Assembly (NCBI RefSeq): GCF_009696275.1
Contig: NZ_VUMI01000011.1
Coordinates: 1 to 64,000 of the forward strand
DNA length: 64,000 bases
Direction of reading: 5' to 3'
Origin: Eisenbergiella porci
Lineage (GTDB): Bacteria > Bacillota > Clostridia > Lachnospirales > Lachnospiraceae
Every line of letters begins with the position of its first letter. The first letter of the stretch is position 1. Of this stretch, positions 22,748 through 55,518 are shown in pieces. The translations under genes and the position numbers were made by a program. The notes beneath the pieces are model-generated. The model searched no databases. It saw only the letters and a list, made by a program, of their open reading frames with translations, and had not been told where the DNA came from.

Positions 22748-23755
22748 TTATTCAGTTTTTTGTATTTCAACACCTTTAAAAAAATCTTTTAAAAGAGCCA
22801 GAAAATCCTCGCCCTGCACCGCCCTGCGGTTAGCCTCAAACTGACAGAAACCCAGCCCATGCCCTACGCCGCGGCTTTCCAGCACTACAAGCCCCTGCTC
22901 CTCACTGATGGTAAAGCAGGAGGAATTCAGGGAAAAAAGGCTGCGGAATTTTTCTCCCGACATATGTATTCCCTCCGCATCCACCCACAGGACATAACCG
23001 GCGCTGTCTCTTGTGAGGGTTATTTTTTCCGTTTCACTGACTCCCAGGGCCGTCCAGAATTCGTTTTTCTTTATGGTTGTTCGCAAGGTATAGCCTTCGG
23101 CTTCTATATCATGCTCGCAGTCCACGCTCACCAGATAATCATAGCCTTCGCCCAGCACCTCCCTGCCGTTTCTCGTCTTTCCCGCACTGAGCCAGAAGTA
23201 GGCCGGTTCTATAAGCTTTCCCTCCCAGGTCAGATACATACCCTTTGTTTCTGATACAGCCCGGGAAATTTTTGCCTGATTATCCACAGCCGAGCTTCCC
23301 CAGAGAGCTTCCCGTTCCCGCAGATCCAGATAGTCCTGTCCGATTTTCCTGGCGGAAATCGTTGTTTCTTCAACCGATGCCCTTTCCTCATACGCCTTCA
23401 TGCACATGGTCCGGAGGATCACAGCCTGCGCCTTGAGCGTCTCTTCCTCACAGCCTGCGGGGATACTGGCCGCCAAAGCGCCTTCCACATAAACCTCCAG
23501 GGGGATTCTGCTCACTCCCGCGCTGCTTTCACAGGCCACCATGAACTTTCCTTCTTCCTCAAATACCGGAACGGTTTCATGGCCGCTTTCTCCTTTTCCG
23601 AAAAAAAGGCTGCATACATAGGGAAGCAGGAGTAAAAATAAAAGGACCGCACAAAGATCCAGCAGCCGCTGCCGGCCTGCGGAATTTCTGAATGCGGGGG
23701 AAAACGGCCTGCGGGGGGTGGGGCGGGTTTTCGGAAGTAACTTTTTTCTGTCCAT
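22748..23755 (-). CDS. spoIID: Stage II sporulation protein D (SpoIID/LytB domain)
   Basis: Peptidoglycan lytic transglycosylase of the engulfment machine. 335 aa from ATG 23755, chosen because GGAGAG lies seven bases upstream; the frame stays open to 24226 but that part lies in a palindrome and looks non-coding. Cytoplasmic basic tail, one membrane helix (LLDLCAVLLFLLLLPYVCSLFF, about residues 35-56), then the SpoIID domain (PLEVYVEGALAASIPAGCEEETLKAQAVILRT; AGKTRNGREVLG; GVGHGLGFCQFEANRRAVQG). The place of the catalytic Glu in the usual A-x-EMP-A motif reads AASIPA, so the Glu is Ser. Activity is doubtful unless another residue serves. Confidence 0.87.
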   Translation of the reverse strand: MDRKKLLPKTRPTPRRPFSPAFRNSAGRQRLLDLCAVLLFLLLLPYVCSLFFGKGESGHETVPVFEEEGKFMVACESSAGVSRIPLEVYVEGALAASIPAGCEEETLKAQAVILRTMCMKAYEERASVEETTISARKIGQDYLDLREREALWGSSAVDNQAKISRAVSETKGMYLTWEGKLIEPAYFWLSAGKTRNGREVLGEGYDYLVSVDCEHDIEAEGYTLRTTIKKNEFWTALGVSETEKITLTRDSAGYVLWVDAEGIHMSGEKFRSLFSLNSSCFTISEEQGLVVLESRGVGHGLGFCQFEANRRAVQGEDFLALLKDFFKGVEIQKTE

Positions 23756-23828
23756 AGTCATCTCTCCGCATTCTGCATATTTACTCCATTCTATGTCCCA
23801 CCACCCATTTTTATTCGTGGGGAACGGA

Positions 23829-24192
23829 TGAAGGCATGTGCCACGGCGGCTTCCCGTCTCTGTCCGGTGGGGGCCGGGGCCTGTCTGTGTTTCCCGGGGG
23901 CGGCGGTGGGGTATTTTCTGATCCAGTTTCAAAAACGGGGTGTTTCTAACTGTTTCGCAAAGCCAGGATTCGGCCAACGTGGCCAAAACTCCTCGCCCGC
24001 GCGACTTACGTCGCATTGGCTCGTCAGACAGGCCACTAGGGGCGGCCGAATCCTGGCTTTTCGAAGCAGTAAGAAACATCTCCGTTTTTTCCAATGGATC
24101 TGAAAATATCCCCACCGCCGCCCCCGGGAAACACAGACAGGCCCCGGCCCCCACCGGACAGAGACGGGAAGCCGCCGTGGCACATGCCTTTA
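23829..24192. repeat. Very large GC-rich palindrome A
   Basis: Arms 23831-23910 and 24111-24190 are exact reverse complements over 80 bases. Pairing continues inward with few mismatches through about 23911-23993 against 24030-24110 (shared CAAAGCCAGGATTCGGCC-type blocks), leaving a small centre near 24000. The whole could fold into one hairpin of about 160 bp. It lies between the 3' end of the aconitase-like gene and the start of spoIID. Outer ends read GGAT-AAGGCATGTG. No target-site duplication was seen. Confidence 0.95.
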
Positions 24193-24350
24193 TCCTATTG
24201 GTTGTGATAATAGGGAGGAAGGACAAGGGGTAAATATGGCAAAGGCCATATCTGTATTTGGGAACAGATATGGCCTTTGGAGGTGATAATGATAAAAAGT
24301 TATTGGTAATGAGCGATATTTAATAATAATTTGTTAGGGTTGTTATTTTA

Positions 24351-26642
24351 CTATTTTACGCGGTTGTAATTTATGAGGCAGCCGTCCAGGATGATTTGGC
24401 GTTCTTCTTTGGTTAGGTCGCCCAAGGTTAGGGGGAAGGGGGTGAGGCCTTCGGGGGTCACGGTGTAGGCGGTAATGGTGTCCTGGGCTTCTTCTACGGC
24501 TTTTCTGATGCCGGGGATGAAGAGGTAGTCTTTGTTGGTAAAGGGAAGGGGGCCTTCTTCAATGAGGAAGGGGAGCATTCCCCAGTTAATCAGGTTGGAG
24601 CGGTAGCGTTTGGTGGCGTATTCGGTGGCTATGTTGGCCCAGCCGCCCAGGACTTTCTGGCAGCTGGCTGCCTGTTCCCTGGCGGATCCATCGCCGGGTT
24701 TTACTGCAAAAATGGTGGATCCAAAGCCGATGTTTCCTTCGCCTGCTTCCGGGAAGCGGGTGTGGATGGTTTCCATGACGGGCTTCAGCTCGGGCTTGGC
24801 CTCCAGGGGGCACTTTCCTTCCATTACGGCGGTCTGGGCGGTTTGGATGTCTTTTGCCAGGCCTACGTAGGCGGGGTCTTTGCGGGAAAGCGTGAATTCC
24901 GCAAGGCCCAGAGGGTTGGAGCGGTAGGAGGAGGTTTCTCCGGAGGGGATCAGTTCATCGGTTGTGGTAACCGGGTCGTGGATCTCGGATACTAAGCGGA
25001 GTACCAGGTTTTCCGGGAGTTCGCACATGGCCGGCCAGTCTTTGATGTTGGGGCCGAAGTGGATTGCCACCTCAGGATCCGCCGCGCCCTTGGAATCGAA
25101 TACGCGGTTTGCATATATTTTGGAGTCAAAATGGTATTTGTATTTGCCCAGGGTAGCATCAAATTCCGTTGCCGGTGTGAGGACGCCTTTGTTGGCTGCA
25201 GTTGCCGCAATGGAGCGGGCATCCATGAGCGCAACGGATGCGATCTGGCCGTTCTGGAGCTTGCTGCCTTCTCTGTTGGGGAAGTTCCTGGTGGAGTGGC
25301 GGATGCTGAAGCCGTTATTGGCCGGGGTATCGCCTGCTCCGAAACAGGGGCCGCAGAAGGCGGTTTTCATGACTGCGCCGGTTTCCATAATCGTGGCGGC
25401 ACAGCCGTTTTTGATGAGTTCCATATAAATGGGCATGGAAGCAGGGTAAACGCTGAGCGTAAATTCATCCGCACCGATGTATTGTCCTTTGAGGATGTCC
25501 GCTGCCGCGCAGATATTTTCAAAGCCGCCGCCTGCACAGCCGGCGATGATTCCCTGGTCCACATGGAATTTTCCGTTTCTCACTTTGTCGTGCAGGGTGT
25601 AGTTGACAGCGCCGTCAAGGCTTACCTGGGCTTTCTTTTCCACATCGCCCAGGATGTCATCCAGATTGGCGTTGAGTTCTTCAATCGTATAGGTGTTGCT
25701 GGGGTGGAAGGGCATGGCAATCATGGGTCTGATGGCGGAGAGGTCCACAGTTACCAGGCCGTCATAGTAGGCCACGTTTCCGGGGTTGAGTTCCTTATAT
25801 TCTTCCTTCCTGCCATGGATTTCGTAGAATTCTTCGATTTCCCTGTCTGTTTTCCAGATGGAGGAGAGACAGGTGGTTTCCGTGGTCATGACGTCGATGC
25901 CGATTCGGAAGTCAGCACTCAGTTTTTCCACGCCGGGGCCTACAAATTCCATGACTTTATTTTTCACATAGCCATTTCTGAATACTGCGCCGATGACAGC
26001 CAGGGCAACGTCCTGGGGGCCTACGCCTCTGATGGGCTCTCCGGTGAGGTAAACGGCAACTACGCCGGGCATTTTGATATCATAGGTCTGGTTGAGAAGC
26101 TGTTTAACCAGCTCCGGCCCGCCTTCGCCCATGGCCATGGTTCCCAGCGCGCCGTAGCGGGTATGGGAATCGGAGCCGAGAATCATCCTGCCTCCGCCGG
26201 CAAGCATTTCCCTGGCGAACTGGTGGATAACAGCCTGATGAGGGGGCACATAGACGCCGCCGTATTTCTTGGCACAGGTGAGTCCGAAGAGGTGATCGTC
26301 TTCATTAATCGTCCCGCCCACCGCACAGAGTGAATTGTGGCAGTTGGTAAGCACATAGGGTATGGGGAATTTGGTCAGCCCTGATGCTCTCGCCGTCTGA
26401 ATAATTCCTACAAAGGTTATATCATGGGAGGTCAGCTTGTCAAATTTGATTTTCAGGTTGTCCATGTTACCGGAAGTGTTGTGGCTTTCCAGGATGCCGT
26501 AGGCAATTGTTTCCTTTGCCGCTTCCTCCTTTGTTACCTGTCTTCCGGTTTCGGCAGCTATCCGCGCCGCCGCATCCTGATTATCAGGAATGATCTGTGT
26601 GCCGTTTACAAGATAGGCACCGCCTTCTAGTAATGTTACCAT
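24351..26642 (-). CDS. Aconitase-family hydratase (YbhJ-like)
   Basis: 763 aa, 4Fe-4S hydro-lyase. Matches the aconitase domain order: [71 protein letters not shown] and [32 protein letters not shown], supplying the cluster cysteines and active-site Ser/Arg. A C-terminal swivel domain follows ([27 protein letters not shown]). It resembles the putative hydratase YbhJ and the aconitases of Clostridia rather than AcnA. It may serve as the citrate-isocitrate enzyme for glutamate synthesis. The 3' third uses strikingly C-ended codons (plus strand G-rich) compared with the 5' part. Strong ribosome site AAGGAGGAGAC. Confidence 0.85.
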
Positions 26643-55212: not shown

Positions 55213-55262
55213 GTCCTTTTTCTTTTCCTCCTGAATTCTTCCATCACCTGCCTGCTCACCAG

Positions 55263-55518
55263 CCGCCCGTGGAGGAAACCGGTGTGCCGGCGTGGGCTAT
55301 GTTCTCCAGGGGAACGGCGGTGCAGGTGTGTTTTTTGCGGATGCCTTTTATGCCATGGAGATGAGACCATAAAACCGGCAGACGCCCCTGCCGGTTTTAG
55401 TCCTGGGCTCATCGGAATGCCCGGCATAACCGGCACCCGCAAAAAATACACCTGCACCGCCGCTCCCCTGGAGAACATAGCCCGCCGCCGGCACACCGGT
55501 TTCCTCCACGGGCGGCCC
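55263..55518. repeat. Large palindrome B
   Basis: Arms of about 115-125 bases meet around a perfect central hairpin, AAAACCGGCAG-ACGCCC-CTGCCGGTTTT (55371-55398). The outermost 30 bases (GCCGCCCGTGGAGGAAACC... at 55263 against 55518) pair exactly, and pairing continues with scattered mismatches (GGCTATGTTCTCCAGGGG, CGGCGGTGCAGGTGT). It sits between the ClC stop and pncB; the central hairpin with its T run could end ClC transcripts. Confidence 0.93.

Follow-up and report, generated by a model that had tools for sequence, protein, structure and literature searches.

In bacterial DNA, a long palindrome that is nearly perfect is expected to be unstable. Such a palindrome lies between a SpoIID domain gene and an aconitase gene in the 64,000-nucleotide stretch of Eisenbergiella porci DNA analysed here (the window), and this locus raises the question of what such a palindrome is and how its arms stay matched. 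We found that it is one copy of a dispersed gut-bacterial family of small, probably mobile hairpins, which we call family A. The special feature of the element is that its arms are of free sequence, yet are maintained as a pair. The neighbouring genes and the elements in the window are as follows.

22748–23755, minus strand: SpoIID domain gene (PF08486), a neighbour whose 5′ end faces the palindrome
23817–23825, plus strand: G-rich 5′ flank GTGGGGAAC; similar G-rich flanks lie 5′ of many family A copies
23826–23911, plus strand: 5′ outer arm, pairing with 24110–24195; little matched by own-genome copies
23923–24097 (about), plus strand: conserved core hairpin of family A, described by covariance model R1
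23943–23950, plus strand: conserved TTTCTAAC; A23948 opposite A24071 is the conserved A-A mismatch (coordinates counted on the sequence)
23988–23994, plus strand: conserved loop strand ACTCCTC, exact in 86 of 91 copies
23995–24020, plus strand: apical hairpin, varying in sequence and length among copies
24021–24030, plus strand: conserved loop strand TCGTCAGACA; TCGTC[AG]GACA is exact in 72 of 91 copies
24069–24076, plus strand: conserved GTAAGAAA, pairing with TTTCTAAC
24110–24195, plus strand: 3′ outer arm (repeat finder)
24196–24218, plus strand: 3′ flank, holding a GGCAGG-like motif in many copies, weak in the window copy
24351–26642, minus strand: aconitase gene (PF00330), a neighbour whose 3′ end faces the palindrome
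55262–55516, minus strand: family C palindromic element, behind a chloride-channel gene (PF00654)

The repeat finder gave arms of 86 nt (23826–23911 and 24110–24195) that are 99% complementary and 198 nt apart. A first reading of the window from its letters (the sequence-only reading) had described exact 80-bp arms at 23831–23910 and 24111–24190, and these are borne out; the single arm mismatch, near the outer end at 23830, falls outside them. That reading also had the pairing continue inward at high identity almost to the centre. A second, inner pair does exist (23931–23975 with 24044–24088, enclosing a 68-nt centre), but it is imperfect, at 84%, and this imperfection recurs in the same manner in other copies. 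Folded as RNA, the plus strand of 23820–24200 reached −328 kcal/mol, where 100 dinucleotide shuffles gave −147 ± 6, and the minus strand −321 kcal/mol, with shuffles at −144 ± 5. By eye, no T run follows the window copy to make, with the hairpin, an intrinsic terminator; a T run lies within about 20 nt behind some other family A copies. Frames within the window copy are shorter than 100 amino acids, except one entering from spoIID, and we treated this minus-strand open frame across the palindrome as chance. Between the element and the aconitase gene there is also a perfect 16-bp inverted repeat (24240–24279) without a clear T run.

A search of the palindrome's own genome (6.10 Mb, 149 contigs) found copies elsewhere, contrary to the refuting outcome named in the sequence-only reading (no copy anywhere else); in all, 46 matches were counted there, both orientations and half copies included. 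A covariance model of 175 positions, built from an alignment of 27 own-genome cores and giving rough E-values, scored the window core at 176 bits in this orientation and 78 bits in the other. The model matched four of 13 genus genomes (G000, 71 matches; G160, 67; G155, 21; G107, 3), many of these counted twice, once per strand, as is natural for a palindrome. When 150 genomes of the same taxonomic family were sampled, the own genome alone matched, which is a weak negative because the filters were stricter and G107 was missed. An exact loop pattern of the G155/G107 type found G107 only among 299 genomes of that taxonomic family, and a looser pattern found, among 245 genomes of the class, the own genome and, in each of two other genera, a single place, these two places being about as rare as three control hits. 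Pattern searching of a genome contig collection returned ten stretches, nine in Eisenbergiella tayi DSM 26961 and one in Streptomyces. Phages and plasmids gave no blastn match to the element, and viral contigs gave no match to the one pattern tried. As far as sampled, family A is restricted to Eisenbergiella. Our searches of the open PMC literature turned up no description of such elements in Eisenbergiella, although one may still exist.

We read 91 family A loci (36 in G000, 40 in G160, 13 in G155 and 2 in G107), with palindromes mostly of 250–450 bp (range 127–557). Genes recurring near them include response regulators and ABC transporter parts, as judged by eye from translations. Scanning 680 kb (the window and the fetched loci) revealed palindromes with other cores, and two further families, B and C, share the design of family A with different cores. 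Scored family B matches numbered 40 in G160, 40 (weak) in G155, 28 in G154, 11 in G000 and 2 in G107; the first look gave 144 candidates in G160 and 62 in G155, and 40 were scored in each. Family C matches, some of them partial or on both strands, numbered 28 in G107, 8 in G000, 7 in G154 and 3 in G160, the window element at 55262–55516 being included in this count. The E. tayi-like genome G160 thus holds at least 40 family A copies (read) in addition to the 40 scored from family B. One genus, then, keeps dozens of long near-perfect palindromes per genome. In G160, family B is a young burst, with the 40 scored cores 90–100% like the query (for example L088:3767-4051, L110:2541-2809 and L175:3915-4180), and one of the copies in this genome sits upstream of its aconitase gene. 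At three G000 loci (L123, L125 and L129), two family A-type palindromes point in opposite directions with about 500 bp between them.

We consider it likely that these are MITE-like, non-autonomous, one-hairpin elements that insert, have one arm copied from the other, carry a core held by selection and, in family A, may act on the host through 3′ UTRs. The first step would be spread by insertion. No long palindrome lies behind the aconitase gene in any of ten readable other genus genomes (L174–L183; the incomplete L184 and L185 were excluded); by eye, a SpoIID-like frame follows aconitase in L174–L182, and in L183 another gene lies between. We counted direct repeats that were exact, at least 7 bp long and near the ends, taking the expectation from mismatched flanks, and used 58 of 60 family B loci (L313 and L331 were excluded) for this and for gene placement. 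Family B copies in G154 carry direct repeats of 7–10 bp in 9 of 26 cases against 0.3 expected, six of them of 9 bp; the figures are 4 of 26 in G160 (0.6 expected) and 2 of 6 in G155 (0.0 expected). Young family B copies have therefore inserted in a MITE-like manner with target duplication. For family A we counted 3 of 33 in G000 (1.0 expected), 3 of 14 in G155/G107 (0.25 expected) and, at 7 bp or more, 0 of 40 in G160 (1.25 expected); the window copy has no flanking direct repeat, and one G000 copy (L158) has a 10-bp repeat at its exact ends. This signal is weak, as the copies are old or different, and family A would have spread in the way its sister family did. The copies elsewhere in the genome, the palindrome-free locus in all ten relatives and the family B duplications uphold the suggestion of a non-autonomous mobile element made in the sequence-only reading. 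Its further proposal of insertion as an inverted pair does not hold, as each copy is a single palindromic element with its own core.

Like a MITE, the element is short, multi-copy and gene-free, and its arms themselves are the terminal inverted repeats. A common end, GGGTGYAGATAAAA, of the G154 family B copies occurs at 104 places with at most one mismatch, against 8 for a control, and part of the family A copies have the ends GGATAAACGCATC. Among 26 PF00872/PF01609 transposase loci in five genomes, no pair of matching ends bracketed a transposase, although single ends or a mini-element lay near L357, L359 and L370. End-pattern searches yielded hairpin copies, solo ends and mini-elements of 60–90 bp, with no end pair 1–2.5 kb apart among the places listed. 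Because the autonomous partner was not found and family A is without regular duplications, we do not claim full MITE membership. A candidate end, GGGTGTGGATAAAA, at G000 contig ends was rejected as part of another repeat. At L343 (G154, near 942063) there is a 60-bp mini-element that is barely more than the terminal repeats GGGTGTAGATAAAA, and similarly close end pairs occur at other G154 places. Single arms or single 16-bp ends (CAGGATAAACGCATCA) that have no partner were seen at L251 and L256 (G000) and at L248 and L253 (G155). They are perhaps remnants of deleted palindromes; solo arms at other sites, as at L251 and L256, are expected if palindromes decay by deletion.

The outer arms are matched within copies and divergent between them. 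In 87 family A copies (L125, L130, L147 and L168 were dropped from the 91), the arms have a median of 79 pairs (range 37–170), 12 copies are perfectly paired, and Watson–Crick pairing stands at 94.8% in G000 (33 copies), 96.2% in G160 (40) and 95.2% in G155/G107 (14). Between copies most 5′ arms are little alike, with a median local score of 11.5 against 9.5 for shuffled arms. At least the 40 best-scoring 5′-arm pairs listed nevertheless exceed the top shuffled score (23), L139, L157 and L158 forming a close trio, so that common descent is still visible in some family A arms. Pairing does not extend into the flanks, where it is no better than between mismatched flanks.

Differences between arms come mainly as paired changes. 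For 18 of the 26 G154 family B copies, those with the common end, the departures from the commonest pair in the outermost 55 pairs comprised 56 both-side Watson–Crick changes, 2 both-side non-pairs and 39 one-side changes. Over 67 pairs we counted 60 both-side cells, against 13.7 ± 3.2 when shuffled (reached in none of 500 shuffles) and 2–8 when slid; relatedness inflates paired counts, but sliding keeps the relatedness and abolishes the signal. We also compared disjoint close pairs of copies that had 40 or more comparable stem pairs and were at least 72% identical. Both-side and one-side changes numbered 134 and 7 (G160), 103 and 16 (G000) and 14 and 6 (G155/G107) in family A, and 78 and 8 (G160), 30 and 21 (G154) and 13 and 2 (G155) in family B. 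Summed over the six groups, 372 both-side Watson–Crick changes stand against 60 one-side changes, with 14 further both-side changes that are not Watson–Crick; some family A comparisons rest on barely aligning arms, which may inflate the paired counts. One-side changes are still frequent in the youngest set (21 against 30 both-side in G154 family B). The "active upkeep" of the arms suspected from the sequence is thus seen in how they differ, and arm-to-arm template copying apparently fits the pattern. During or after insertion, one arm would serve as template for the other and the two would thereby stay matched, most simply through replication template switching across the hairpin. With one arm copied from the other, arm sequence would be free and pairing would not. 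The families, with old and young copies, several cores and both shared and private sites, amount to a natural experiment on this levelling of arms.

The core behaves differently. Conservation across the 91 cores is 95% or higher in TTCTAA, ACTCCTC, TCGTC..ACA and TAAGAA, as well as in a few single columns. TTCTAA pairs with TAAGAA except for one A-A mismatch, which is kept in 83 of 91 copies and levelled to a pair in three (L111, L116 and L155), five being unclassed. Core pairing is 80.6–86.0% Watson–Crick by group, below that of the outer arms. Since the mismatch and the asymmetric loop resist levelling, some factor probably recognizes the folded single strand of the family A core, whether RNA or single-stranded DNA, and selection would hold these features against the copying. 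Strong covariation is also seen in the core (158 both-side cells against 39.8 shuffled). Covariation is the usual proof of RNA structure, but here it can also arise from copying at the DNA level; it is therefore no proof on its own, and only the levelling-resistant mismatch and loop speak for function. Within the whole window no Rfam family reached its gathering score, one search giving a single match at E 0.79; for seven loci with B and C elements the only matches were microRNA-type ones and a single IRES, none of them at gathering score. We read the best sub-gathering match (E 2e-12) as a generic long hairpin. We provisionally set aside an integron attC site, a retron, an IS110 bridge RNA and a self-cleaving ribozyme as identities of the element.

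Placement points to the strand that may be read. With ORFs called mechanically, 30 of 87 family A copies have the end of a sense gene no more than 40 bp upstream, and 8 of 87 have an antisense gene within that distance downstream (p 0.0005); within 15 bp the contrast is 19 to 4. By genome, the bias is significant in G160 (17 to 4) and non-significant singly in G000 (9 to 2, p 0.065) and G155/G107 (4 to 2). TAG accounts for 15 of the 30 upstream stops, compared with 86 of the 475 ORF stops across the loci. Family B shows no such bias (18 against 22 of 58). Likewise, arm mismatches in family A are G-T in 101 cases and A-C in 53 (39 against 13 copies), and in family B 31 and 43 (12 against 18 copies); the family A figures supersede an earlier count from 27 own-genome copies with lenient ends (G-T 64, A-C 28). 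From the sense placement and the G-T excess, the plus strand seems to matter as the folded strand in transcripts for family A, and not for family B. The window copy does not illustrate this bias because its plus strand is antisense to both neighbours. For family A, RNA is favoured over single-stranded DNA because the copies lie in sense just behind stops and tolerate G-T over A-C. As a last step, a very stable hairpin in a 3′ UTR might alter mRNA 3′ ends or mRNA lifetime in the host.

The core covariation and the G-T excess of the family A arms would also suit plain stable RNA genes, in which ordinary compensatory mutation under selection keeps the arms paired and no copying takes place. The arms, however, are matched better than the conserved core, G-T makes up just 1.2–1.6% of family A arm pairs, and 219 of the 372 paired changes are of a type unable to pass via G-U. 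One-base gaps are also mirrored in both arms, at two places in L295 and in an A/T run in L324, and family B is equally maintained without a strand bias. We therefore regard RNA genes alone as an unlikely explanation.

If arms were rebuilt at each transposition, one from the other by fold-back synthesis, and not in place, copies would likewise show paired differences and have variable arms around a fixed core. Sites at which G000 and G160 both carry the element, and at which the two flanks also match, bear on this. There are three (L126/L111, L169/L083 and L123/L090), other G000/G160 loci sharing one flank only, and they make the "recent formation" offered in the sequence-only reading unnecessary. 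In the two that we aligned in full, the cores align and the arms do not, each arm pair being matched. At L126/L111, the arms are matched within each genome and unalignable between the two, and the cores share features that look, by eye, private to the pair, which suggests change in place. We regard rebuilding at transposition as similarly unlikely.

The conserved mismatch and asymmetric loop, best read as a single strand, might instead belong to a REP/REPIN-like or IS200/IS605-like single-stranded DNA element mobilized by a Y1 transposase. TAG followed by a G-rich 5′ flank, an arrangement seen in many family A copies, recalls a tag beside a hairpin, as reported for GTAG-tagged REPs. We counted flank motifs in 73 family A copies, leaving out those of G155/G107: a GGGGGAC-like 5′ motif occurs in 37 (24.4 when shuffled, with a maximum of 30 in 200 shuffles) and a GGCAGG-like 3′ motif in 36 (10.3 when shuffled), compared with 1 and 8 of 58 family B copies, respectively. 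Family B, however, has 7–10 bp direct repeats and symmetric terminal repeats, and we know of no REP/REPIN-like or IS200/IS605-like element that makes such terminal direct repeats. REPs and REPINs are palindromes of 20–40 bp associated with a Y1 (RAYT) gene, and the Eisenbergiella element does not fit them in size. We consider this origin very improbable. An assembly artefact, which a draft of 149 contigs with 4.9% contamination might invite, is contradicted at the level of the family because the same design is found in other assemblies, including the one-contig G154 (family B), and hardly deserves belief.

Beyond the one-hairpin mobile element that we favour, we put forward tentatively the idea of a chassis shared by unrelated cores, in which a stem of free sequence, renewed arm from arm, would show a conserved single-stranded tip to a specific protein of the host or of the element, with family A doing so in 3′ UTRs. 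If this doubtful but possible reading were true, the families would make up a new class of mobile elements that display RNA, and their covariation would be made by a DNA copying process, not by slow compensation.

In behaviour, these elements resemble MITE-like repeats such as bcr1–bcr18 of the Bacillus cereus group, as far as the part of that report available to us describes them (PMC3446304). Those are 18 group-specific, intergenic families, of which bcr1–bcr3 are MITE-like and some have conserved structure; transcription was recorded for 84 of 165 copies in one strain and for 62 of 155 in another (40–51%), often in UTRs, and bcr3 was correlated with mRNA decay rate. The bcr repeats belong to other organisms and are likened here by description, not sequence, and the available part of the report mentions no free-but-matched arms, which are a feature of the Eisenbergiella elements. 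Prokaryotic MITEs, in the portion of a second source that we drew on (PMC10969869), are likewise short, gene-free and multi-copy, with terminal inverted repeats and direct repeats at the youngest copies; here, in contrast, nearly the whole element is palindrome, the core is more conserved than the ends, and a transposase partner was not found. Long perfect inverted repeats are also kept in the living genomes of Nematomorpha, according to the section consulted (PMC6649704), although those palindromes sit inside mitochondrial genes and the Eisenbergiella ones are dispersed and intergenic.

Template-switch hairpins and quasipalindromes combine paired multi-base changes with matched stems, as here. 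In the part of their work that we used (PMC8794818), Monttinen and Loytynoja describe template switching in RNA stems, with an excess of G-C and U-A through correction to the 5′ base; set against such hairpins, the Eisenbergiella stems have 37–170 pairs (median 79). The base asymmetry is matched only partly. As it predicts, the 5′ arm has more T than A in 71 of 73 family A copies from G000/G160 and in 51 of 52 family B copies from G154/G160. The bias is reversed elsewhere, with A at least as frequent as T in 13 of 14 family A copies from G155/G107 and in 6 of 6 family B copies from G155. G exceeds C in most 5′ arms only in G000 (26 of 33). The 3′ flank of the family C copy in the window, TGGTGAGCAGGCAGGTGATGG, is similar by eye to family A flanks.
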